From NCBI GenBank assembly GCA_026874595.1, contig CM049307.1, positions 97,524,330-97,588,329 of the forward strand: a stretch of 64,000 nt of DNA. The letters are read 5' to 3'. The stretch comes from Sipunculus nudus. Lineage: Eukaryota > Annelida > Sipuncula > Golfingiida > Sipunculidae. Both the position numbers and the translations under genes were made by a program. Each line of letters opens with the position of its first letter. The stretch's first letter is position 1. The notes beneath the pieces were generated by a model that saw only the letters and a list, made by a program, of their open reading frames with translations, had not been told where the DNA came from and did no database searches. Positions 3,098 through 57,486 of this stretch are shown piece by piece.

Positions 3098-3250
3098 AAA
3101 AACTGAAAATATAAGTTAAAATATTAGAATTGTTGCAAAAGTTGCAATCATTATATATCCAGAGTGTAGCTCATATTGGGTCATATTATGCATACACATA
3201 TATTTTATTATTTTTAAATCATAAATGTTTAAACTGAATTTAAAAGAAAA

Positions 3251-20600: not shown

Positions 20601-23600
20601 CCAGGTAAGTTATCACAGCGATAACTAATGTTAACAAACTAACAGACGGACGGACCATGGTTATACCATAATATGTCCCATAATTGACAACGTATAACAA
20701 GAAAAGACAGTCAATGTTAAGCAAGTTAAGCTGGTATTAACGGTGTTTTTTATTTTTTTTTATCCCTATACAAATAAATCAAAGTGACCTTTCGCTGAAT
20801 TCACAGACCTAGACTGCTACTTTAGTATCTCAGAAAAAGCCCTCTTAAGTCAAGACCAGACCTTGAACTCTTGACTTTTATAAAAGAGCATCACACTTTG
20901 CTCTGTTCGTTCTGTCATTAATTTAGTAAGTACTGAACATCTAAGCATGTACTCACGATCTTCCCCGGCCAGGTTGATGTACGGAACATCCTGGACTCTC
21001 ATTAGATTTAATCTGCAACAAAAACAAGCTGTGACAATCACGACATACTCATGTAAATTACTCTGTTCTGAAATGGCCTTGATTTTATAACCTTGTTCTC
21101 AATAAGCTTAGATTTCTAATTCTGGCTTTGAATGTTTAACTTTGGCCTTGGCGTTCAGATAAAGGCCTTGATATCTAGACACAAGTTTGATACTTTAGAC
21201 ATTGGTCTTAATGTTGAGATACTGTACCCAACTCTCAGTCTATTTTAATCTTGATATTCAGAGATAAGCCTTGATCTTTAGATACCAGTCTCTATATTCA
21301 GAGATTTGCCTTGATGATAAGATACTAGTCTCGATATTCAGACACTGGCCTTGATATTCAGACACTGGCCTTGATATTTATCCACTGGTCTTGATATTCA
21401 GAAACTAGCCTTGGTGTACATATATTGGTCTTGATGTTTAGATATTGAGACCGATGTTCAGATATTTACTTTGATATTCAGATATTTCTTTAATAATCAG
21501 ACACTGGTCTCGACATTCACACACTGGCCTTGACTTTCAGAGACATACAAACCTTTGCTTTTAGTGTTTAACATGACCTGGTATTTATCCTATATAACTT
21601 TATACTCAAACTAGCATCACACTTACTTATTGATAAACGGTTCCAGCAGCGGGGATCCTGGGGGCACCATATCTTTCTTTGGATTCTGGTACGACCCTGT
21701 AGAATATAAGCCAGAGTAAACATGGGACCCATGAGGCATCAAGCTTTAGTTATGAGTGCAAATTTGAAAGTTGTAACATACATAAATATGAAGAAATCTA
21801 TTTTCATCTTTGTCAACAATGTACAAAGACACTGGCAGACAGATGCAGAATGATTTATCAACTTGCCAGCAGGTGGCAGCACCTTGCAGACAATGCTAGC
21901 AAAATGATCTAATCACTCCACATTGGTGCCATGGAAATTTTATTTACTTTGCTGTACAAATTATAACTGGGGTTTCTATGTCTTGTTGGGTAAAGTAATC
22001 CAAGGTAAATAAGCTCATCAAATTTCAGGATATTCCATGCAGTTATTCTAAGAAAACTGGTTTACTATGGCTTTTTTTACTATAAATGTGCTGATAATAA
22101 GACATATTAGCAAATGTGAATGACATTTTTGTTTTGAAAAGCTTGGATTGATTTAATACAAAATTCACATGATGTTTAAGGAAAACAAATTATAGTGACT
22201 TGAGATGCAAATTCATAACGTTTATCCAGTAACTGTAGAGATTTAAAAGTTCTGACTTTCAGTTCCTTATTTAACATGGAATCCCACTATGATTGACAGG
22301 AGATAGGTCATCCTGGCCTGATGTTAGGTTTTCATCTTCATTGCATCAAGACTTAATTGTCTGAATATTAGAATACTTAAAATTAATGTCCACCTGCCAG
22401 ATTAAAGAACAAAAGATAAAGAACAACAACTACGGCTCAGCAAGACAGGTCATATTTAGTACTGATATTGATTATGAAATGATTAAGTAGCTCCTCCAGA
22501 ATCTGCAAAAGGCAGTTACATAATCGTTAAAAGCCAAGAAATTACTGCAAGATCCAGACTCACCGAGATGGTTCGCCATGGTGATGAAGCAGACGCCAGT
22601 GATGAATGCATCATAGCCAGCTTCATGGAGTTTTTCTGTGGTTGTGGCATACCCTGGGAATCCCTCAGGGAACACTGTAACAAACAATAAATATGATAAA
22701 CAAGTTTATATCTCTGATAAATGTGCCCATTAATGGTTCATCTGTTAATATTAACTTCTCACCAGTTCTGACTCACAGCTCCTCTGTTCATATTAGAATG
22801 CTATATCATTTTGTATTAACAGATCTTTGCTCCAGTCTTCACTCTGAATAATCTCATCCATTTTTATCTCGTAATGAGTGATGGTACTGTTCACTTTTAA
22901 CATTTAAATGTACGCAAATAATTATTAAAATTCAATATGAACGTTATGACAACAAACTTTACAATTAATACAAGAATTGTGTTCCCATGAAGAGTTTTTC
23001 CTCTGTTGTGTGCTTAATCTCCTATTTTTGCCCCTGGGTACCATGTTCCAGTGCTTTATCTCCTATTTTTGCCCCTGGGTACCATGTTCCAGCTTGAGAG
23101 GTCTTTACATAGTTCATCTAAGATAAACCTGTTATTTAAGGCCATGTAGCCAATTCTAAAACAAGGGACACATGGGTCACTGTGCTCAGCTGAAGTTAAC
23201 CTTGAAGGTAAAAATCTAAAATAATATCAAATGGAGATCAAGTGTAAGAGGAAGAGGTAATAAAGGCCATGGTTGGTTTATATGATTGGTTTGTATTGAT
23301 GAGCAAGAAATTGTTGCAAATAATATGTTGTGAACTGACCATGTGTTTCCTAATGTTGAAACTGAAGCATGTGAGCAGTTTGTGAACAAATGATCTGTAC
23401 TAATACCATGATCATCAGTTGGCTTTTTGATTAACTGTTGACATTTCAGTAGTTTACAAATTTGTTCAATTGAATCTATTTTTTCGTATAATATATATTA
23501 TTAAATATATATGTATTTTTTATGAAATGTTTACAGATGAAATATAACTAATTAACAACATAAAACAGGGCAAACAAAGCCTGATCTCAAATTCTGCTGT

Positions 23601-26600: not shown

Positions 26601-29600
26601 AAAAAAAACATATGTTACAACAGTAGACTGATCCCTGCTTGTGCATCCAAGGCAAACCAGTGAAATGTTGGAGAACTGCCCATCGTTACTGCCATGCATG
26701 ACTAAACTTACAGTAAACTGTTGCAAAATTTGATAAATCTAATAGTGAGATATTTAAATTCAACTAAAGCTGTCCAAAAGGTAACCATGGTAACCTAATT
26801 TTTCTAAAGACAGCATTTCTTTATGAGAACTTAGTCAAAGATGTCAGATGTCAAATAAGGATTTTCTAGCTTAAGCATTTTCAAGACATGTCTGTGTAAT
26901 GAATGCTGTACATTGGGAATGTCTTCTTACCTGAGGCAGAGGACCCACAAACTTGTGCAAGGCATGTAAAACATCTAGCAACATGTTATGTCCAACCATC
27001 AGTTTACCCTGAAAGAAATAATTATCATTATCATTATTATGAGATTTTCTGACAAAGAGGGTTAAAATGTCAGGTATGTTCATCTTATATTTTACAGTTC
27101 CTTTCGAAATTTTTGTAAGAAAACTTCAGATGTTCCAGAAATAATACAAATCTATAATTTAATACTCATGTACAGAACTCAAAATCTATTTGATTTAAAG
27201 AAAGAACATTAATATACTCTAAGCATAGGCTGCAAAAACTCTCTTTTTTAACAAACGAACAATAAAATACCAATAACATGTAAATATAGGCTGTGATACA
27301 TTGCATTGCTATATTGTTGGTACTTGTCTTAGTAAGTAATTGATTGTATTGATTGGTTGTTTTCTTTCAAAATCAATTAAACTGCTTGTATTTTTGCTTT
27401 ACTGATCACAAATGATCACAAAAAATAGGGAATAGCATCTTAACTTGAACCTTGTGCAGCGAAGAAGTGGCATCTTCTCAGCCTTTATCTTGACTTTTTA
27501 TAGTGGAGTAGAAGTTGGGCTTAATTTATGAGGTATAATTCCATACAGCAAATTTCACAATAATACAGAAGGTACATTAAATAATCAATTTATAAGGCCA
27601 AAAAAAAGGTTTAGTTCTCAGGCACTTTTTATCAGAAATCTTAGTGTGGGCTGCAGGATTTTTTATTGCCTTTTTTGTATGTTTTGATAAAAATTTCATA
27701 TATTAAAGGAAAGGCATTATAATAACATATTTTTTTCTACACATGTAGGAGTAATACATAAGAAAGGAAAACTTGATATATTTCATCTTCCTCAAAGATG
27801 AAAATCAAAATAAAAATTTTTGATGTGGGGAGTTAAAATTGATGTGGGCAGTGCCTTTTTTGAACCATACCTTTTATTTTTTTTTTTGCCCAACTGATCT
27901 TCAGTTGATCTATATCATTGAGTCACTGAATATGATTTGACAACCAGTTTCTACCACCAGCTGGTACTCACCGATGCTGTTATATGTTTTATCACTTTTG
28001 TGAAGCCTACAGCATCATCTATTTCTTGCTGAAAAAAAACAAGCATATTCAATTTATGTCCCCCGCTATCGACACAAATTTGGTGATTAGTGAAACTAAA
28101 TGTGCTGATTCTGTGCTGAGGTAGCAGGGAACAAAAATAAAGAATAACTAGGGACCAATGGGTCTCAACGCTCAGCTGTATTTGTCTCTAAGGATATTTA
28201 AAGAAATTTTTCAGAATGAGTCCTGTGACCTTCACCTTTGACCTCCAGACCTGGGTCATTAATAGATCAAGTTTGAAGCCAATCTGTCTAGCCAAAGCAG
28301 GATTATCATCCATAAACTAATTTGTGAATGGATTGGCCCTGTGACCTTGACCTTTGACCCTATCACCCCAAATCAAATAGAATCTTCCCCTATCGGCAGG
28401 TGAGTAATGCATACACATTCCTTATAAAGAAATGGGTCCTGTGACCTTGACCTTTGGACACCAAAATAGACAGGGTTCTTACTTTAGTTGTGAGCCATAT
28501 ATAAGTTAAGTTTGAAACCAAAATGTCAAACTAAATTGAGGTTATCATCTGGTAACCCTGTGGCCTTGACCTTTGACCTTATGACCCCCAATTAATTTAT
28601 GCTCTCCCCATGCTGGCAAGTCAGCTAAATGTGCAAGATGGAAAGATTGGCCTAAAATGCAGCTATAATCTTTTTAAAAATGTAAGTCTTGTGACCATGA
28701 CCTTTGATCTCATGACCCAAAAATCAAACAGGTCCTTTCTTTAGTGTTGGGCCATTTGTAAGTTGTGTTTGAAATCCAAATGTCAATCCAACCTGGAGTT
28801 ATCATTTCGAAACAAATTTGTGTGGATACAGGAATGGACAGACAAACAGACAGACAGACAGGGTGATTAGGCCAGATTTTTTAATTTTTCGGTTTACAAA
28901 CCCGCCAACCTCCGATATCCTCATTTCAGAAAAAAATAAAATTAGCATTTTTACTTTTTTCCCTTTTATATTGCGTCGTTGAATCCAACACGGTTGTTGA
29001 CAAATGAAATGTTCAGTGACCGTGTGTATTTGATCACCTCAAACGTTAGAACTCTTATGATTGGCTAATAAGGTCACTTTCGTAATGACAGATGGAGGGT
29101 TTAAGCCAATCACAATAGGGTATCCTTGGGCCATAAATGCAATTGATTGGCCATCAAGTAGTCAACAGATTCAGCAGGGAAATTGAGAATTCTTGGAGAG
29201 TTTTCAAAGTTTGTTTTCTGCACTACAGTACATTTTTAAACCAGCGTTTATGTCATATTCACCTCTTTAAACATATTTGTTTTAGATAGATGTGAATTAG
29301 AAAAGAAAATTAGTTTGGTTGCATAGCGGCTTTACCAGCTTGCCACTGTTAATAACTTGCTGGATATACAAACAAATTTACTTCTAAGACTAATTATTGC
29401 ATTCAAAGTCAGACGCTATTTATTACTGCAAATTGGCTTAGTTTCACAAGTTTACTCTTTAAATATTTTATTACTTGTCAAAAGTTAAAAACGTAGTCTT
29501 GTAACGCTTTAAAGAAAATTACCGAACAGATGAAATTATATACTGCATGAGGTCGTCATGTATTCTTTGAAAACTCCAGGAATTCTCAGGGTTTCTGCAG

Positions 29601-32600
29601 GATTTCCGACTATCTGTAGTGTTAGTGGCGCGGGTTTACGTGAAGCGTAGGCTTTGCGGGTATTTTTAAAGTCAATACAAAAGCCAGCTAAAATGAAAGC
29701 CATTTAAAATGCAGAAACTTTGAAAGGATTCATTTAATTGTTCCAAACGGATGTGATGGAAGCTTTGATGTGTATGGATGCCGCTAAAGCAATACCGGAC
29801 TGACAGTGGCCAAGTGATGGCATATTAATTTAAAATTGAGTACGGTACGTGCTGTCACGGCCGTGGTAAGAAATGCAGATCTTTATTAATAAATAAAGAT
29901 TATTAATACTTTTTAAACTTTTGAAATAGTTGAATTATTCAATGTGATCTCCAATGGAAACGTCACTTTATTAGCAGTTTTTGTATATTCAAATGTGATC
30001 TCCAATGGAAATGTCACTTTATTAGCAGTTGTATATTCAAAGGACTATCAAACATGCGCAACACAAAAAAAGGAAAGGTCATGGTCATGAATCAAGCCAC
30101 TCCGACTCCGAGTTCCATGTTGTTGACATTTGATAATATAATAGGCGAATAACTGCAAGTTGCATATTGTCATTGATATTGTCATTCATGACTGAAAAAT
30201 AAAAATTGCAGTCTTTCATGCTAGCAGTGAATATTTAGTTTTCTCCTTGCATATATGACAAAAATATATTATTTTGTATTTGTATAAGTATTTGACTGGT
30301 TTTTAATTTGTAAATCTTTATAAAATAGGCAAGTCACTTGGCAGGGACAGTGACTGAAGTTTTATTTCAGGTGTGTATGAAATCATATATAACTTAATAA
30401 GTTTTACTGTTTAAACTTTTTATTTGTCATTATTTTACCTTCGCTGACATTTGAATGGCTTGAAATAACATGGCACACGCATAATTCAAGTGGAAAACTC
30501 AAGAGGATGATAATATTTTAATTTTTATATATTATTTATATATTTTATATAGGTTTATATAGTGCCATTTAAAAATGAATTTTATAACCCAACTGTACAA
30601 TACAGGATTCACGAACACCAGTATCCAGGTTTGTTCCATTTTTTTTTTTTTTTTCCTACCTCCTACCTTTCACTTTTGTCAAACATGTTCGTAAACCAAA
30701 GAATTAAAAAAGTCTGGCCTTACTATAGGGCATCCACTTGTGATCAATACACACACCAGGTTTTCAGTCACTAGATGGTATTACAGCTGAGAAACTGACA
30801 TGGTTGTTGTCATTTTATAGTAAAAAAAATAGAAAAATATTTAAAAAAATACGAAAAAATACAGGTGGCGCCACCACTGTTTGGGGAACTGACAAAACTA
30901 GTCATAGTCAATATTCAAGGCAAGTTTTGTGATGATCCATGCATTAATTATCAAGATATTGGAGGTTTTGTATCAAATTTTTGATTATTCTTTGGGGTAT
31001 TTACAAACCCAATAGCTCGGAGGATATAGATCGCAGTTACTTTATTTCAGGTTTCCAAGGAGATTTTTATTGACTTCCTTGGATGTTTCTAGGACCAGCA
31101 GTCAGGATTTGTGCCCTAATAACGGATGACCGGACGGACGACGGACAAAGTGCCATTCCTTTACCTCAGTTCACTTACAGTCAGCTGAGCTAAAAAAACT
31201 TTTCTCTTCCTAACTAATAAAATATTTGTGTGCATTTGGGTAAAAAAGGAAGTATTTAAGCTAAAAAAATTTTACAAATATAAATTTCTTTAACAAAAAT
31301 ATTCAGGAAGAAGTGTGAGGATATACAGCTGTACAGCTACGTATGATAACCATCATTTTCTGGAGACTGTTAACAACCACTGTAAGAAATAGTGGAAATT
31401 TTCTATGGATTGTACAACTAGTTATAGAAACTAATGCGAGGTACTCTCTATGGCACAAATAATGGGGTTAAGTAGTAGGTAGGTCAGCTTACATATTCTG
31501 CAGCCTTCTTCATGTTTTCTTTTTCTCGGAGCTCTTTCTCCCCTGACACCTTGCTCACAACAATATGGCGGCCTTTGTTCTCATTGGTTTTGGTTTCAAG
31601 ATGGATCTGACCTAAATACCTGATAAAAAGTGAAATTAATGTCTCTTGTCTCTTTCTAAAAGATTAAACCATATCCGAGGACAAATAGGTTATAGAAATT
31701 ATAAATAAAACACAATGGCCAAAAAATATAGTTTACATGTAGTACTACAGTGTTATAAGGTGGTAAATCTTCTCATAAAAAAAAGATGTATCAACTGGAC
31801 TAAATAATATATATAATAAAAGTCTGTTAATATTGACTTCACAGAAGGAAAGTCAAAATTGGTACTGGGTGATGGACAGTTAGATTTCAGTAGAGTAATC
31901 TATTTTTTTACACATTTCTACATGTCGGCAAGAACTAGACTGCTGTGTAACTGAGCAGGTTACAAGTCAAATGATGCAGTCACTTTATTTGAGTGGGGTA
32001 CAAGTCAAAGGATAAAAGTGGCTCACTTGCTGGAGAGTGTCTGATAAATTAACATCCTCTGGAAACCGTTGCATGGATGGAGAGGAAGTGTATAGGAATC
32101 TTTGTCTTCCATAAACTCCTCAACTTTCTTGCTGCAATTTATAAAAAAAAAATTATTGTGACACAAAATATAAATAATTTTGATAAACTTTAAATTACAA
32201 GGTTACCTGGAAATCAGTTTATACAATCCCTGAATCTCACAAAAATCTTATGTATAAGCTATTCAAATTATTTGACCAGGAGTTCATTTTAAACCAGGTA
32301 AATTCTTTAATTGTAACATTGGGTTATTTCTTATTAATCGAACCTCGCCTTAAATAATAGAATAACTTGACAAATTCACAACTTTTGTAATTATCTAGTA
32401 GTAACATGGTCACCTCAGTGTTAAACAGTTATATGAAACAATTTTATAGCATTCATCAGCATTTACTGATTTAGTGATTACCTGACAGTTACCTGACAAC
32501 TTACTGTTACCAAACAATTTGAAGACAAACAGCTGATAGTTATGACTAGATGTGTCGGAACGACACGAATGCCCCCACCTGGGGCAAATTAGAAACATTT

Positions 32601-35600
32601 GTTAAATTTTGTAAAATTTTTTAAGTTCAGGAGGTGTTGTATGTAAACTTCTGAGTGTTTTTCTATAATCAGCTCTTAAATGTAGAAAAATGAGCCAAGG
32701 TCACCCATCTTCGAACTTGACCGAGATTTTATCGATATACATCTTCACTGATGAAATAAAATTCTAACGGTGAATCCTTTTAGAGATATCCCGCTCACAA
32801 GGTAAAAGTTAAAGGTAAAAGAATGGACGGATGGACAGACACCGGACAGACAGATGGACGGACGGACAGACGAACAGCTTTTGTGACGACAATAGCCCAT
32901 CAGCCTATGAGCTGAGGGCTAAAAAAACGGCTGTACATGTGTATTTGTCATGAAAATTTCTATTTTTCATGAATTTTTCTAAGTTTTGGAGCCGTAAAAC
33001 GGTCAAAAGTAGGTCAACCAGAACGAAACGCGAACTCGATCTGTAACTGGTCATTATCTGCCCACACACCAAAAATCAGGCCAATATCTGCAGGCACTGC
33101 AAAAAAAAGCCGTACATGTGTATTTGTCTTGAAAATTTCTATTTTTCATAAAATTTTCTAAGTTTAGGGGCTGTAAAACGGTCAAAAGCAGGTCAACTGG
33201 GACGAAATGCAAACTCAATCTGTAACTGGTCATTATCTGCCAACACACCAAAAATCAGGCCAATATCTGCAGGCATTGCAAAAAAAAGTCTGTACATGTG
33301 TATAAGTCATGAAAATTTCTATTTTTCATGAAATTTTCTAAGTTCAGGGGCCGTAAAACGGTCAAAAGTAGGTCAACTGGGACAAAATGCGAACTCGATC
33401 TGTAACTGGTCATTATCTGCCCACACACCAAAAATCAGGCCAATAACTGCAGGCATTGCGAAAAAAAGTCCGTACAACTGTTTGATTCCGGAATGACGGA
33501 CATGGGTAAAACTATATGCCCCGGCCACTTTGTGGCGGAGGCATAAAAAAGTGTATCTAAATATATCAGCTAACTGTTAACAGTTTTTTTTACTTTTACC
33601 CTGACAGTTTGACAGCTACTTGACAGATACTGTCCCTGGACTGTGGCAGGACACTTTTAACAGTTACCTGACAGTTTGAGAAATCTGACAGTTTAACAGT
33701 CATCTAACAGTCACTTGGCAGTTGAAGTTATCCAGCAGTTTATTTACTTAATAGTTTAAGTTACCTGACATTCCAACCATACACCTGGCAGTTACCTGAC
33801 AGTTTAAATTGCCTGACAGTTACTTGTTTACCTGACAGTTCAACATTTACCTGACAGTTACTTGTTTACCTGACAGTTCAACATTTACCTGACAGTTCAA
33901 CATTTACCTGACAGTTACTTGTTTACCTGACAGTTCAACATTTACCTGACAGTTCAACATTTACCTGACAGTTCAACATTTACCTGACAGTTCAACATTT
34001 ACCTGACAGTTCAACATTTACCTGACAGTTCAACATTTACCTGACAGTTCAACATTTACCTGACAGTTCAACATTTACCTGACAGTTACTTGTTTACCTG
34101 ACAGTTCAACATTTACCTGACAGTTCAACATTTACCTGACAGTTCAACATTTACCTGACAGTTACTTGTTTACCTGACAGTTCAACATTTACCTGACAGT
34201 TCAACATTTACCTGACAGTTCAACATTTACCTGACAGTTCAACATTTACCTGACAGTTACTTGTTTACCTGACAGTTCAACATTTACCTGACAGTTACTT
34301 GTTTACCTGACAGTTCAACATTTACCTGACAGTTACTTGTTTACCTGACAGTTCAACATTTACCTGACAGTTCAACATTTACCTGACAGTTCAACATTTA
34401 CCAGATAGTTCAACATTTACCTGACAGTATTAACAGCTAGCTGCAGTTACTTATCAGTTTACCATTAAACCTGACAGTTACCTGACATTCTTCAGGAAAT
34501 CTTGCTGGTCTTCAGGCACTATGGCTGGGCTTTTGACAACCATGCCTGCTCCATCTGGTGCTGGACTGCTGAATGCTGGTGACGTCATGCTGGCATCCTG
34601 CTGCCGATGTCGCTGTGCTAGTCGCTCGAGGAGTTTATTTTCTTCTGCTGGTGCTAAATATGGGATACCTGGACAAAAGAAACAATACATGAAGTTAAAG
34701 TTACTGTCAATCAATACTGATCAAATATAAATTAAACAAGCATCTTATGAATATTCATTATGCCTTGATGGATGTAGGTGAATTGTAAATTATGGTCATT
34801 TATAGAGATCTTCTAGATATTGATAACAATTTAATGAATTAAAGTCACTTCATTAATATTCAATATTATAACATTATTTCACAATATGGAATAGCTTCTT
34901 TACATATACAATCAAATTCAGATAATTACTGAATTGTTACCATATTAAAATATCTTGAAACATATGTGAACAAACAGCGTATATAGCTTACACAAATATG
35001 GTGTCACACAACTTGACTGCAAAGTTGTAAAAAGTACAATGCATACTGTTTCCAATTTAATTTCAAAATGGTTGTGAATATTATGGATGTAATCATGTTT
35101 AAAATGTCAATTTCTAATTACCCAAATATGTTTCCTTTTTTATTAAGTATAAATATAAACATTAATATTAAACCTACCATCTCTGAAAACTTTGTTGAAA
35201 TCAAAACCTTGAGACACTAAGAAATCTATACTTGAGCTCTGAAAACATAAACCATGATCAAATGATTTTTTTACTAAAATCAGACTGACAGTGCAACATT
35301 TCACCAGCATATAAATGAGATTCATTTGGTTTTGTCTATCTTGCTGGAAGAAAAAAGAACAAAAACTATATTTAAAGAACAACAGTTTTATGTTCATTAT
35401 TTGATATAATTCACAATGTGAACCTTGTCACTCTACGCTTTGTCATCTGGGCCATTTAGCCTGTTTGTTCTGGAGTCTGTATCTGGTCTCAGAAGTAAGT
35501 ACAACCAAAAATATGTTATAGCTGTGATAAAGCAAAACATTCTACCATTACAAACCAAACAACAAACAGTATCTGTTCATTTCTAAGTTAGGATTGTCAA

Positions 35601-38600: not shown

Positions 38601-41600
38601 TACAACTTGGATGGCTTTCTGGATTTTGTGGTAGGTGGCGCAACCTACATACACCATTTGGCTGCAGACATCCATGCTAATATGCAACACTTCACTCTAT
38701 TTCCCCTTGCCACTCAATCCATGCCTCACTTCACCCATTCCACTCTGATTTAGGCGGATACACGTAGTCGCTTGTCGACTACCCGTATTCTAGTTTTCAG
38801 TATGGTAGGAGATTTTGTGGACCTCTAACTGTATGCTAAATTTTGGATTCATAGGTCCAACGGTTTCAAAATGTGCCCTGTTAACAGACGGCAGGCCGGC
38901 CAGAAGACGGACAAAGGACCACAACTATAGCTCAGATGACTTGTAGTCAGCTGAGCTAATAACTGGTTCCTTGGACTAATCAGAACATGGTTATCTCTCT
39001 CACCTGACAGAGGAACCTGGTGTCCGTGGCTTGTCTGCTGAATGGATGCGGAAATAAATAGAAGTTGAAGGCCCTTGCTGTGTATCTGTAATACAGTGTC
39101 AATGATAAAATATCCTGCAGTGACTTCACAAGTTTAAATACACTGCTGTCCATGTTACAGGAAGATGCCTTTTAACAAAACCATGCATACAGAATGTTAT
39201 TTACTTAATAACTGGCCAGACTGCTCCTGACTGCAGCCTTATTACAGTTACAGAGACACACACAGATATCACTAGCTGAATTTTTAGTTTAAGCAAGTGA
39301 TGAGGATGTGATGTAGACAAAATATTGTTTTAAATATATACTGTAAGTTTATCTGCATCAATAATATCATTATATGATACTCAATCCTGATACAAATCAA
39401 CTGTTGGTGCCTGGAGAGATGAGTGGTAAAACGCTCGGCTCTCCACTGGTGACCTAGGTTTGATCCCTGGCATGTCTAGGAGAGTGGTTTGCAGTTGCCT
39501 GTACAATGGCGGTGGTTTTCTCTGGGTCCTCCTGTTTCCTCCACCCCTGCAGACTACTGAACGACCATCTGAGCCTTGGAGAGTGCCTTGTGTGAAATTA
39601 TTACAATAAAAGTGGAACCTCTCCCAGTTGGCACTTCCCTAAAGTGGGCACCTCTATATTGTTGACAGTGTTTGACAGTGTCATTTTTCTCCACGTTATT
39701 TATGTAGTGGGAATTACCTCTGTATAGTGGGCACCTCTATATAGTTGACAGTGTTTGACAGTGTCATTTTTCTCCACGTTATTTATGTAGTGGGAATTAC
39801 CTCCGTATTGTGGGCACCTCTATATAGTTGACAGTGTTTGACAGTGTCATTTTTCTCCACGTTATTTATGTAGTGGGAATTACCTCCGTATAGTGGGCAC
39901 CTCTATATAGTTGACAGTGTGTGACAGTGTCATTTTTCTCCACGTTATTTATGTAGTGGGAATTACCTCCATATAGTGGGCACCTCTATAAAGTGAGCAG
40001 TTTGGCCAAGTCTTAAAGATGCCAACATTACAGAGGTTTCGTTGTAGTTTTACAATCCTTGTAAAATGAATAGGTTTATATAATAAATGGTGAGAGTCAT
40101 TTTGTTCTCTCATTCTACCTTCTCCTTTACAAAAAAAAGACCTTGTACTGATGAACTCTAAGTTCACTTACTGATCTGTTTCCTCTTCATACTGGAATGT
40201 ACAAAGCCCAAACTGGGCCAGGAGGAAGTCCATGGCTCCCTGAAAATAAAGTATAAAATTTAAAAAAACAGCAACAAAGATTCATGAATAAAGAGTAAAC
40301 TAGATGTGTCGGAACGACACGAATGCCCCCGCCTTGGGCAAATTAGAAACATTTGTAAAATTTGGAAAAAATTTTAAGTTCAGGAGGTGTCGTATGGTCA
40401 AAAGTAAGTCAACAAGGGCAAAATGCAAACTCGATCTGTAACGGGTCATTATCAAGCAACACACCAAAAATCATGCCAGTATATGCAGGCATTGTGAAAA
40501 AAAGTCAATACATGTGCATTTTCCATAAAAATTTCTGTCTTTCATGAAATTTTCTATGTTTAGGAGCCGTAAAACAATCAAAAGTAGGTCAACCGGGATG
40601 AAACGCAAACTCGATCTGTAACTGTCATTATCTGCCCCCACAAAAAAAATCAGGGTGGTATCTGCAGGCATTGAGGAAAAAAAGTCAGTACATTTGCATT
40701 TGTTATGAAAATTTATATTTTTCATGAAACTTTCTATGTTCAGGAGCAGTCAAATGGTCAAAAGTAGGTCAACTGAGACAAAACAAGAACTCGACTTGTA
40801 ACTGGTCATTATCTGCCTACACACCAAAAATCAGGCAAGTATCTGCAGGCACTGCGAAAAAAAGTCCATACATGTGCACCTTTTTATGAAATTTTCTATC
40901 TTAGAGCACCGTCAAACAGTCAAAAATAGGTCAACTGGGACAAAACGTGAACTTGATCTGTAACTGGTCATTATCTGCCCACACACCAAAAATCAGGCCA
41001 ATATCTGCAGGTATTGTGAAGAAAAGTCTGTACAAGTGTATTTGTCATGAAAATATATATTTTACATGAAATTTTCTATGTTCAGGAGCTGTAAAACAGT
41101 CAAAAGTAGGTCAACTGGGACGAAATGCGAACTCCATCTGTAACTGGTCAATATCTGCAGACACACCAAAAATCAGGCCAATATCTGCAGGCATTGCGAA
41201 AAAAAGTCCGTACATGTGTATTTGTCATGAAATTTCATATTTTCATGAAATTTTCTATGTTCAGGAGCCATAAAACAGTCAAAAGTAGGTCAACCAGGAC
41301 GAAACACGAAGTCGATCTGTAACTGGTCTATATCTGCCCACACACCAAAAATTAGGCCAATATCTGCAGCCATTGCGTAAAAAAGTCTGTACATGTGTAT
41401 CTGTCATGAATATTTCTATTTTTCATGAAAATTTCTAAGTTTAGGAGCCGTAAAACGGTCAAAAGTAGGTCAACCGGGACGAAAGGGGAAGTCGATCTGT
41501 AACTGGTCTATATCTGTCCACACACCAAAAATCAGGCCAATATCTGCAGGCATTGCGAAAAAAAGTCCGTACATGTGTATTTGTCATGAAATTTCATATT

Positions 41601-44600
41601 TTCATGAAATTTTCTATGTTCAGGAGCCATAAAACGGTCAAAAGTAGGTCAACCAGGACGAAACACGAAGTCGATCTGTAACTGGTCTATATCTGCCCAC
41701 ACACCAAAAATTAGGCCAATATCTGCAGCCATTGCGAAAAAAAGTCTGTACATGTGTATCTGTCATGAATATTTCTATTTTTCATGAAAATTTCTAAGTT
41801 TAGGAGCCGTAAAACGGTCAAAAGTGGGTCAACCGGGACGAAACGGGAAGTCGATCTGTAACTGGTCTATATCTGTCCACACACCAAAAATCAGGCCAAT
41901 ATCTGCAGGCACTGCGAAAAAAAGTCCGTACATGTGTATTTGTCATGAAATTTCATATTTTTCATGAAATTTTCTATGTTCAGGAGCCGTAAAACGGTCA
42001 AAAGTAGGTCAACCAGGACAAAACACGAACTCGATCTGTAACTGTTCTATATCTGCTCACACACCAAAAATCAGGCCAATATCTGCAGGCATTGCGAAAG
42101 AAAGTCCGTACAACTGTTTGATTTTGGAAGGACGGATGGACGGAATGACGGACATGGGTAAAACTATATGCCCCGGCCACTTTGTGGCGGGGGCATAAAA
42201 ATATTTTTTAAGACAGAGTGAACCACCTATGTATCTACTGTCATTACAAGTACAATAAAATCCTACCTATACATGACAAAAAGTTCAAAAAGTCCTTTCA
42301 GAAGTGTGGCTGTGTTAGACAATTAGTTAGACAACAAATCAAAAATGTTCAAGCACGACAAAAAACAGTGGTCATGGTTGAATGGGTGTCTCTTTACTGG
42401 CTTGTGGTGGTATGGACTGGTAACAAATTCATGTCTGATGACTGGAAGAAAATTATGATTGATGCTTAATTATTATATGTACCTTCCATTTTCTCCTAAA
42501 ATATACTAATATTAGTCAATATTCATGTTAAGACTTGATAAATCATGTTATCAATGTATTCATGCACACCTTGAGGTGTCAAATGGTTTGTATGGTATAC
42601 AACAGCAGACAGGTGGTCAAATATAAAACTGGAACAAATAACAAAATGCATGCTTACAGTCACCCTGAAAGGTCAAGCTGACTGCCCAGTTGTTGGCATT
42701 CGTCCTCTGCCTAAATTTCAGTTTTAATGTTGTTTAATTTATTTTTTTCTGGATTACTTGGCATCTTTGCAAGTGTATAAAGAATGATTTGTTATCAATT
42801 AAACAAAGAGGCAAACAATTTAACTGATTCTGAAATAAAAAGACCAATCATCAATGTATTTGATTCACTGGCACAACACTACTGCCTGGGTCATCAGACA
42901 TGAATTAATTAAGTATATTTTAAAATTTAGATAGTATAAATTTGCTCTCAATTTGCCTCTATATTTTCAGTTTTACATTAACGATACAGATATTCATCAA
43001 TTTGTAAAGTACTACTGTACCAGTCTGTTCTGCTTATTTTTGGAACCTGTTTTTAGTAGTTATTCCATTACAGCTCATACACTGCCAAAAATAATTTTCT
43101 TATCTAAGGAAATATTAGTTATTTTCACTTGAAACAAGTAAAATTTACCTAAAACAAGGAAGTACCTAGAAATTAATCCTTAAATCACAAGAATGAAGCC
43201 CATCTCTTTGGTAAATAAGTAAAAATACCTACAGTTTAGAAAAAGTTACTTGATATAAGTTAATTTACCTTCAGCTGTAGGCTTTACTCCCTGATTTTAG
43301 AAAATTTAACTTTAGAATGAGTGAGGTGCAAGTAAAGCTTACTAATATGAATGTAACCACATATTAAACATCATGCAAAATTCAATTTTTAATCACTGTA
43401 TATTGTAACATTGTCAGTAAGGTTTACAGTCCTACATCTAACAAATGTTAATTAAAAGGGGTGCATAAAAGGGGCTGTAAAGAATTATACTAAGTGAAAA
43501 ATATTGAGTAATTATAAACATTTATGCCCACTCATTGATACAGCAGTTGTTCTCATTTTGTTACCAAGTCACTGAGGTAAAGTTCAAGTTTTCAAACCTT
43601 CAGGGTTATAAGTGTGATAATTTTGAAAGCAGAAAGTATTAAAAAAATAGTAATGTTCACAAAATCCTGTATTTAAGCTGATTTTATCTTTAGGTGATGG
43701 TTAAGGGCACCAGTTTTCAAATTTATCTGTGAATTTACTTTATCCTGGTGTTTGTTCATACTGATTTTCAGAACAATTTAACCATCTCTACCACCCTTCT
43801 TGAAAAATCTAATTCATGCTCGGTGTTATTTTCACAATATGTGGATTAATACAAGATCAAGGTCTCTTTTAATAATATTAAATTATTAAAGTCATGACCC
43901 TACTTTAAGGAGTCTAGGCCTCTTAAATGAATTCACAGCAGTAAATTTTTAAAAATTAAAATTTATTTCCAGTTTTATTAAACATTTTATTTGACCTGAA
44001 TTAATAAACTTAATATATTTGAAGCATTATATTACAAAATATGTGAGAATTGCATGTATGTATTGTAAAATAGTATATTAGGAGATTTAACTGTTAAACA
44101 AGTGACCCATGGGTCATGACGCTCAGCTGCCAAGCATGACCTGTGACATCATGGACTGAGATTCACAACTTCCAGTCAAATTTTGAAGAACCAATTTGCC
44201 AATTTGTTGAAAATTTTCTATGACAACAGAAATATATATCACCTATGTCTGGTTAAAACACAGTGAATTGATGGTCTGAGGAAAATTGAATGATTGTTAA
44301 GCTATCATGAACTATTCCAACAGCTTGCTTGAAACCTGTCAGTCTCAAAAGGTACACCACAAAGGGCAAATATAAGATCAAAATATATAGCAAAAATCAA
44401 GGAAATACATGCAAGAATTATTGAGAAACAGGTGCTTCTGTATGAATTTTTATTCAATACAAGCCAACTGTACTGCACTTTTATAAATGATGGTAATATT
44501 TATTCAGAAATATTTGACCCAATCCTTTACAAGATTACATAAATATACATCCAACTGCATTCACTTTAACTGTTCTTGAGATAATATGATCAAAAGGAAT

Positions 44601-50600: not shown

Positions 50601-53600
50601 TCATTTTTCTAAGGTATGGAATTAGTTGTATTTCTTAAATATTTGGAAGTTTATATTTTGTTCATTTTTTGTAGATTAGATTAATGCCTGAAATTTGCTT
50701 TGAAGCATCTTTTACAATTTTCTTTCCAGTTGTAAGAAATCTTCCACAGAACTAGGTAGGCAATGGGTAGTGCAACAAGGGCTAAAAAAATCCAGTAGTA
50801 CCAAATCTTCACCATGCAAAAAAATGAGTTCAACAAACTTCAGTACACATTTGTCCCCTTGTATGAGTGAAATTCACTGATTGTTAATGAAATTGAGGGA
50901 ATGAAACTTTTGTGGCCTGTCAATCTTGATTTTGATAAATGCTTCTCTAATTGTGAGGAGCAATGGCTTTTGACTATTCGTGTACTGAGGACCAGTGGGC
51001 CAAAAATATTTTTGAAGCCCTAAAAGTAGAGCAGGCTTATGAAAACATGTTAAACACATTGTTAGTTGAAACATTTGGGAGAAAGTCAAGGTAAGGACTC
51101 AATTCCACTGCATGTATCATGTGATATATATATGTGTGCATATTCAGTATCAATAAGATATCTCAAACAAGCATGTTACTCACATCCTTCAGTTTCTGAT
51201 ATCTCTAAATATCTCAAACGAACATGTTACTCACATCCTTCAGTTTCTGATATCTCTAAATATCTCAAACAAGCATGTTACTCACATCCTTCAGTTTCTG
51301 ATATCTCTAAATATCTCAAACAAACATGTTACTCACATCCTTTAGTTTCTGATATCTCTCTGCAGGTGTGTCATATGCATGAATGGTGAACTTCCCGGAC
51401 CCAAGACCTGTAACAAATACAAAACTTTAGCAGTTCCATTTACAAAACCCTGTACTTTGAAGGGAGAGGTCAGCCAAGGTCTGCTTAATCTGGGGCGTCA
51501 TTGTGAAGTGAACATATAAAGGACCAAAGAAAGAATTCTCCGAGTTAAACTGGGATTTTCATTTATGGGTTCTTTGTGATTTAAGGGTCAACCAGTGAAT
51601 GTAATTCAATGTAAAGTCTATTTATTACTTTTATAAGTGTCCTTCCTATAAGAAAATGGATGGTTGGAAACACAATGCTGGCCTTTTTATTCCAGGAAAG
51701 ATAAAATTCAAATAGTCAGGTTTTAAACAAACTTTTGATTATACCTTCATTTTGTTTTCCCCTTGGTCAGACATGGGGTCTATTACAGTTGTTCTATTAC
51801 TATTACTATTACTATTACTTTCAATTTCTGATATTACTATTACTATTACCACATTTTATCTTCTATTACTATTACTTGGGTATCTATTACTATTACTATT
51901 ACAATTACTTAAACTGATGGGAGGATTCTAGACCTTGCGCAGCCATGAGTGCTATAAACTAGCACCACAATCACATGGTTAAATAATATTACAAGCAACT
52001 ATATGATCCAGTTACCAACACAATCTTCTTATACTGTGTCTGTCATTTACAAGAAGCCTAATGATACTGGAGATCTTAATTATTTCAGCTTCTTTAATTC
52101 TGTTTTTTTTTATATTTTGAAACCTCAGTGGACGTTATTGGGGCTTTTCAAGTCGAAATTATAAGATAATTGTATGAACTCCTGAATACATGTAATTTAA
52201 AAGCAACCCACTGTAAAGCCCTTGGCTTATGTAAAATAGTGATTTATAATTATATGCATACTTGTACATTTTATATTATTTTCATATATATTTCACATAA
52301 ATTTATTTTACAGAACATACTTCATTTAGATTTAATCTTCTTTCTCAAAATTAATTAATAAAGATTTTCAATGTAACTAAAAATTCTCTCCAGAGGAATT
52401 ATTCATGATTATTGGATATTATTAATTAGTATCAAAGCTGACAATTCAGTCCTTTATGTATGTATCAGGAGAGGACGTTATGTAGGGCTGTGTCCTGTTT
52501 CCCAATCCTTATAAATATATCCAATAAAAAAAACATTGTTTACATCAAGATTCTAGACAGAACCAAACTGGAGACAAATGAATGTGATGCCATTTTTTAT
52601 TCCATCACATAGTACATCTTGAGTGTCTGAGAGGTGGTAAACTTTACAGTAATGGTAGCATGCATGGCTTTTATTCTTCAGGCATGCCCTTCTTCATTGC
52701 AGCAAAACAAGCATCTATAGGATAATTTATGAATATGGAGAGTTATTTAAACTTACATCAGTTTTACAAAACAAAATAAAATATCACTTTCACAATAAAT
52801 TTGGTATTAAACAATCTTGTACTTTAAATTTTGTACATAACAGGATCTAATTTTATTTGATATCAAAATTTCAGATATTAAATAATTAAATATTAACAGT
52901 TACTTATATTCTCATATTATACAATCAAATAAATTAATATTGTGATAAAAATGGTTCATTTAATTTTCAAAATATAAATTAACATAATTTTAAATACAAA
53001 TGCAGGGCTGCAAAATTGGCACTCACAATGAAATAACAGACAGGTATTAAAAGAATAATTTTAAAAGAATATGTATATATATCAACTAGATAATACATGT
53101 GCCTGCAAGTGACTGTAGTACTGGTATGAGTTCATAGCATTGTAGGCTTCAATACGTCATGGGTAGTAGGCTTATCATGAACATTTTGGGTCTGCACTGT
53201 ATCTGGTTCCATATTATATTTTTTTCTTGAATGTGTGTTATTGCAATCTGTATGATTAAAATGCAAACTGGCTTGTGAAAACAAATCGAGGTACATTTCA
53301 GAATATGCATATGGATTGATGGATGTGAGATAAGATGTACATGTCACAATAATTAATACTCTATTTATCTGTCTCTTAACATCAAATATGCCTCTGTTTA
53401 TCCATGGTTTACTAATCAAAGGTCAGATTATGCCAGGTAACTTATTTGGCTGTGACCTACTCTGTCCAGTACTCTTATGTATTAGCACCAGTGGTCACCA
53501 GCAATGTGGCAGCTGGCCCATGCGGGTCAGACTAATCACTCAATCAGACTCAATCATACCCCATTGGACCCGATTGTACCCCATCAGACCAAATCGGACC

Positions 53601-57378: not shown

Positions 57379-57486
57379 CTGCAAAAGAAAAGATTTGTTA
57401 TATATATGAGGAAAAGGGAGACATTGTCTAAATCAAGGTTGGGTTTCAGCTGGAAGAAATGGCAATTCAGGGTATCAGGTCTATTA

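Follow-up and report, generated by a model that had tools for sequence, protein, structure and literature searches.

What does a splice donor mean when dozens of equally good copies of it follow in the intron? This question is raised by a tandem repeat that adjoins a coding exon of PARN in the Sipunculus nudus genome. Most work on how one of several equal 5' splice sites is chosen has used designed transcripts in which sites were duplicated, and this genome supplies natural junctions with equal donors, with 34 copies behind one PARN exon and at least one copy at 9 of 185 sampled donors. If the exon-proximal site is nearly always used at such junctions, donor choice would be set by position and exon context; if it is not, PARN transcripts would be lost to decay. 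A repeat at a splice site, taken alone, is no evidence of function. Throughout, the window is the whole 64,000-nucleotide stretch of DNA that was analysed, PARN lies on its minus strand, and a slash marks an exon-intron junction.

The PARN exon and the anatomy of its donor array

The exon next to the array was mapped by tblastn with human PARN as the query, and by itself it is a weak PARN match (3d45, E = 0.51). Joined with the window exons at 35241-35176 and from 32131, exon 34668-34482 matches PARN chain 2a1r with E = 1.7e-27, in an alignment that is gap-free at the 3' junction of the exon, and the joined trio matches chain 3d45 with E = 6.5e-27. The CAF1 nuclease model (PF04857) additionally accepts another PARN exon, at 26931-27104, with E = 6.7e-4. 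The 3' end of the exon adjoining the array reads AATGTCAG/GTAACTGT. This exon is the sixth in the exon map, whose first mapped exon lies at 57382; because an acceptor precedes that first mapped exon, at least one further PARN exon must lie upstream, so that the earlier label of "exon 7" is plausible although the map itself counts six.

Table 1. Features of the PARN locus on the minus strand, in window positions.
Feature	Positions	Strand	Basis
PARN coding exon upstream of the array, approximately residues 131-184 of human PARN	34482..34668	-	tblastn; joined-exon match to 2a1r and 3d45
Real donor GT, CAG/GTAACTGT, score 9.01, 59th percentile of 185 donors	34480..34481	-	
Decayed proximal repeat, with GT at 34475, 34470, 34462, 34450, 34434 and 34425, all at the 0th-11th percentile	34428..34479	-	
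Array core, 32 in-register 19-nt units of CTGTCAG/GTAA plus spacer	33820..34427	-	
Distal edge, decayed and irregularly spaced, with strong copies at 33795, 33764 and 33667	33600..33819	-	
Next PARN exon, CAG/CAAGAAAG, completing codon AG/C	32027..32131	-	frame runs on from donor 34481
Earlier PARN exon (ERYQKLKD), donor GGAT/GTGAGTAAC at 51336	51337..51407	-	
Second array over a PARN donor, with 4.0 copies (original counted) of a 51-bp unit	51158..51359	-	

Within 34481-33590 on the minus strand there are 35 CAG/GTAA sites, namely the real donor and 34 intronic copies spanning 34420 to 33667, in line with the earlier estimate of about 35. Elsewhere on the minus strand of the window, CAG/GTAA occurs at 21 of 3437 GT dinucleotides (0.33 per kb), as compared with 34 in the approximately 0.89 kb of the array. 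The repeat 3' of the exon totals approximately 0.88 kb and is composed of a proximal decayed edge, a core and a distal decayed edge; the decayed units start at the donor, and the uniform core starts 54 nt further on. The core is indeed the string of 19-bp CTGTCAG/GTAA units that had been described, with ATGTTGAA as the spacer in 24 units and ACAAGTAA in 8. CAG/GTAA is intact in 31 of the 32 core units, and variation besides the two spacer types amounts to 2 substitutions in 608 positions. The GTAACT of the real donor is kept in the three strong copies of the distal edge (33795, 33764 and 33667), with GTAAAT in 23 copies and GTAAAC in 8. Two details of the sequence-only reading have to be corrected: the copies had been placed directly after the real donor, whereas the first equal copy (34420) lies 61 nt off with six weaker GT sites between, and copy spacing had been given as multiples of about 19 nt, whereas it is mostly 61 + 19k and not 19k.

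The unit appears to be specific to this locus. A 30-nt double unit has 22 exact matches in the 1.43-Gb assembly, all within the focal array, and an 87-nt similarity search of the assembly returned 10 places, again all within it; no second locus with the focal unit was found in the 1.43-Gb assembly by these exact and similarity searches, the DNA search being of a kind that may skip common words. A dispersed repeat or satellite has its unit at many loci, and the focal unit, with all its matches in these searches inside one array, is not of this kind. The core units hold TGTCAG, beyond the usual CAG, which at the real junction belongs to the coding sequence, so that exonic letters are present in the copies; moreover, 14 nt of the decayed unit at 33667, in the distal edge, are identical to the real junction (TGTCAGGTAACTGT). 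Together with the uniqueness of the unit, these features uphold the earlier suggestion that the array grew out of the donor itself, which is the most likely origin, and the simplest order of events would be that the end of the exon was copied into the intron. Because its 32 units show two substitutions, the core is young or lately homogenised, and it is probably variable in length. A uniform core between decayed edges is the usual minisatellite profile.

Other repeats were seen in the PARN introns. In the second donor-spanning array (Table 1), each 51-bp unit comprises 23 nt of exon tail followed by GAT/GTGAGTAAC, copying donor 51336, and the array adds 3 further copies of GAT/GTGAGT. No donor copies were visible by eye in a 20-bp array at 21250-21543, which lies in the intron after the PARN exon with donor 21626. 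Tandem arrays at 32921-33476 and 40396-42112, also in PARN introns, have a period of approximately 180 bp and similar units (GGTCAAAAGTAGGTCAAC...), and the former stops approximately 120 nt past the distal end of the donor array.

Strength of the copies and consequences of their use

Donor strength was scored with a model built from 185 donors of the same genome (167 from the gene sample described below and the 18 of PARN), which is partly circular because 167 of the 185 were chosen with preset donor weights. Of the 126 other GT dinucleotides in 34481-33590, exactly 34, the copies, equal or exceed the real donor in score: they occupy the 78th percentile (23 copies), the 63rd (8) and the 59th (3), the last being that of the real donor itself. 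The predicted duplex with the U1 5' end reaches -8.0 kcal/mol for the real donor and -8.0 or -8.3 kcal/mol for the copies. The units had been proposed to be able to bind U1, a proposal against which low donor scores would speak; their predicted pairing is as good as that of the real donor, and none of the 34 copies has a lower score than the real site. As judged by these two models, sequence by itself fails to distinguish the real donor from the copies. Additionally, the RNA of 34520-33990 (exon end plus part of the array) is predicted to fold better than its shuffles, with -152 kcal/mol and z = -5.8, a z of a size that tends to come from repeats alone; such a fold might conceal or expose splice sites.

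Use of a copy had been expected to shift the reading frame, which is beside the point, as a stop comes at once from the TAA of the donor. The exon frame at the real junction reads AAT GTC AG/G TAA, the donor itself forms the stop UAA, and therefore every lengthened PARN exon has a stop. At the second PARN array a stop likewise precedes the first copy (GTG AGT AAC ATG TTT GTT TGA), and it does so in 7 of nine further donor cases. The first donor copy is in frame and stop-free in L033 (+30) and L069 (+51); in the latter, use of the copy would therefore insert 17 codons. L069 is an SNF2-family donor at 3116 with its first tandem copy 51 nt downstream.

Frequency of arrays at donors, acceptors, introns and exons

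The frequency of donor-spanning arrays was assessed on exons of the families PF00063, PF12774 and PF00176, which were fetched regardless of repeats. From the 257 family matches listed (75, 93 and 89, respectively), 174 were used, chosen by E-value, clustering and location on large contigs with the repeats unseen. Exon ends were set with preset donor and acceptor weights, which left 7 of the 174 exons lacking an accepted donor and 10 lacking an accepted acceptor, and the 18 exons of PARN were added. A tandem copy was defined as an ungapped match of at least 18 of 24 nt within 220 nt. Low-complexity windows were excluded from the final counts (2 of 486 and 6 of 476 intron windows had previously been low-complexity matches), and the intron controls are purely automatic calls. 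Copies rich in indels escape this ungapped 24-nt test: L033 and the focal PARN donor fall below 18 with arrays that are plain by eye, and neither is among the nine donor matches. In L013 an acceptor that has an array was placed wrongly by the automatic calls.

Of the 185 donors, 9 have a tandem copy, as do 6 of the 182 acceptors; among interior windows, the corresponding figures are 68 of 1038 for introns and 1 of 165 for exons (taken at exon midpoints). Because PARN entered the sample through the finding itself, the rates without it are also given: donors then stand at 8 of 167 and acceptors at 6 of 164. At a threshold of 17, the corresponding counts for the full sample were 11 of 185, 7 of 182, 85 of 1038 and 1 of 165. 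No excess at donors over intron positions near the same exons was detected (4.9% vs. 6.6%, Fisher p = 0.51), and the odds ratio of 0.73 has wide margins, with which a twofold excess or deficit at donors is compatible. The comparison of acceptors with introns gave p = 0.09 and that of donors with acceptors p = 0.60, as against p = 0.02 for donors with exon midpoints and p = 0.0005 for exon midpoints with introns. According to these sample counts, therefore, arrays are frequent in introns and scarce in exons, and donors have approximately the intron rate.

Two myosin-family genes carry long donor arrays, with a 36-bp unit in 22.9 copies at L028 (CTGACAG/GTCAGT) and a 31-bp unit in 23.5 copies at L033 (ACAGCAG/GTAAAT). 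Across ten cases, with the focal array excluded, GT was retained in 58 of 73 copies, compared with a mean of 52.5 of 73 for other dinucleotides. Selection against decoys was considered and rejected, as no purging of GT from the copies was seen, in what is a weak test; with its 2 substitutions in 608 positions, the core of the focal array is too young for it.

Several observations on other loci were made along the way. The six automatic acceptor matches are L066, L068, L080, L082, L044 and L077; in gene orientation, acceptor-spanning arrays lie near 3623 in L066, near 515 in L068, near 503 in L080 and near 1690 in L082, and by eye L013 has at 868-1399 a unit of approximately 82 bp that contains the acceptor and approximately 30 nt of exon start. 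A dispersed unit of approximately 30 bp, CAGGTGAGTGATCATCTCTGATTATGCTTA, occurs with variants and intron-like ends (GTGAGT...TTACAG) at several loci (G000:C4:62536186, 62539539 and 62671514; C5:16203769; C6:21869540 and 21882728), unlike the locus-specific PARN unit. At G000:C4:88723147-88724890 there are 37-bp units, most of the listed ones with two donor-like words, CAGGTAAGT and CAGGTATGT. The SNF2 model also matched long open frames (625 to 5066 aa), several of them alike, on high-numbered and apparently small contigs, including C61, C62, C66, C69, C72, C74, C77, C83, C89, C90, C101, C108, C130 and C138; these matches could represent mobile elements, or else DNA of foreign origin that entered the assembly. 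At G000:C2:44848559-44854198, consecutive myosin exons match overlapping stretches of the model, which suggests mutually exclusive exons of a muscle myosin gene.

Explanations of the focal array

We consider it highly probable that the focal array is a neutral minisatellite of the mirage type, which grew over a splice junction and is tolerated there, and not a switch. The first step would have been a short tandem duplication of exon tail and donor, which then expanded by slippage or unequal exchange to an array of approximately 0.9 kb, and the core would have been homogenised lately while the edges decayed. The splicing machinery would normally keep the exon-proximal donor, a choice to which exon definition and the 61 nt that precede the first equal copy may contribute, and any transcript that now and then arose from a copy would bear the junction stop and be removed by nonsense-mediated decay. 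Tolerance of the array because the splicing machinery prefers the exon-proximal site is the most likely account. The sequence-only reading had instead seen a possible decoy or redundancy zone, in which the copies would bind U1 and tune PARN by poison splicing or donor backup, and this we regard as unlikely. The 34 copies that at least equal the real donor in strength and the immediate stop upon any copy use would suit such a zone, as would the similar array of human ABCA7, where one unit is retained in approximately 2% of transcripts (PMC5954066). However, arrays over donors have about the same frequency as arrays elsewhere in introns, the searches of the assembly gave no second locus for the unit, and donor backup by the copies would be useless because of the stop; as a function, the zone thus finds no support in the comparison of donors (9/185) with introns (68/1038, p = 0.51). 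A bolder version, to which little probability can be given, makes the array a U1 landing platform whose length sets the PARN level: longer alleles would shift the balance between correct and stop-bearing splicing, perhaps shielding an AATAAA (33744) from use, and in its wider form approximately one in 20 donors would carry copies, with donors chosen by position next to the exon and not by donor sequence.

The presence of two arrays in PARN could also mean that donors are hotspots at which arrays arise, with RNA-DNA hybrids or a break specific to donors as conceivable causes, and closely spaced triples of CAGGTRAGT do occur genome-wide at 701 places, whereas the backward control has 190. This 3.7-fold excess is misleading because places within one array are not independent, and the word counts were rejected in favour of the gene sample, as the places cluster in few loci (29 donor-word loci among the places listed). 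On C1 up to 76.5 Mb, 2 donor-word loci stand against 4 control loci among the places listed, and sampled donors did not exceed introns (4.9% vs. 6.6%, p = 0.51), so that a hotspot seems improbable. An assembly artefact, with a wrong unit number or a false array, is very improbable: long uniform arrays are often mis-sized, but two interspersed unit types, one variant unit and the decayed edges make a pure artefact unlikely, and similar arrays lie at several other donors. Scarcely credible, finally, is an action of the array as DNA, as an intronic enhancer through the plus-strand TGACAG in each unit, the core of TALE homeodomain sites. Of the 69 TGACAG on the plus strand of the whole window, 39 lie in 33600-34492; against the enhancer, the number is explained by the motif being part of the copied exon tail.

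Comparison with known systems

The closest analogue of the PARN array is the VNTR in intron 18 of human ABCA7, in which the array flanks an exon, the first GT is the donor and retention of a unit leads to a stop. Its 25-bp unit is present in 23.7 copies in the reference and begins with the exon 18 donor (PMC5954066); retention of one unit is independent of array length, whereas skipping of exon 19 rises with it, and the VNTR ranges from approximately 12 to 427 units, its length going with exon 19 skipping and Alzheimer risk. In PARN, by comparison, the first equal copy is 61 nt from the donor, and the array is known from one assembly. GYNGYN tandem donors, competing sites a few nucleotides apart (PMC1779574), also place more than one usable donor, as predicted for PARN, at an exon end. 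At PARN, however, the nearest equal site is at +61 nt, followed by dozens of sites mostly spaced by 19 nt, and the nearest other GT dinucleotides, at +6 and +11, are at the 0th-1st percentile. Tandem copies of a splice boundary would also be raw material for the Rogers model of intron gain by duplication across AG/GT (described in PMC3087553), but no new intron is evident at PARN, where the array lies inside an existing intron.

Donor-copying tandem repeats are a known kind, the mirage minisatellites, and the PARN array is most likely an extreme case of it. Mirages have been described in the amphioxus genes Adh3, BflGb6 and BflGb9 (globins), TnC and PGBD5, where they span exon-intron boundaries; the Adh3 units are 10-72 bp long, many with AG/GT, at both exon boundaries, and the Adh3, globin and TnC mirages are said not to disturb splicing, with the same suggested for PGBD5 (PMC3087553, PMC3902484). 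Boundary-spanning is shared by the 51-bp PARN array with its 23 nt of exon tail and by the focal array with TGTCAG, although in the latter the first unit has drifted from the core and 61 nt separate the donor from the first equal copy. A further shared feature is a unit tens of base pairs long whose AG/GT signals recur in many copies (19 and 51 bp, 34 CAG/GTAA copies). The present case differs from the amphioxus mirages in offering 34 strong donor copies at a single junction, a genome of 1.43 Gb and a comparison of array rates among donors, acceptors, introns and exons.
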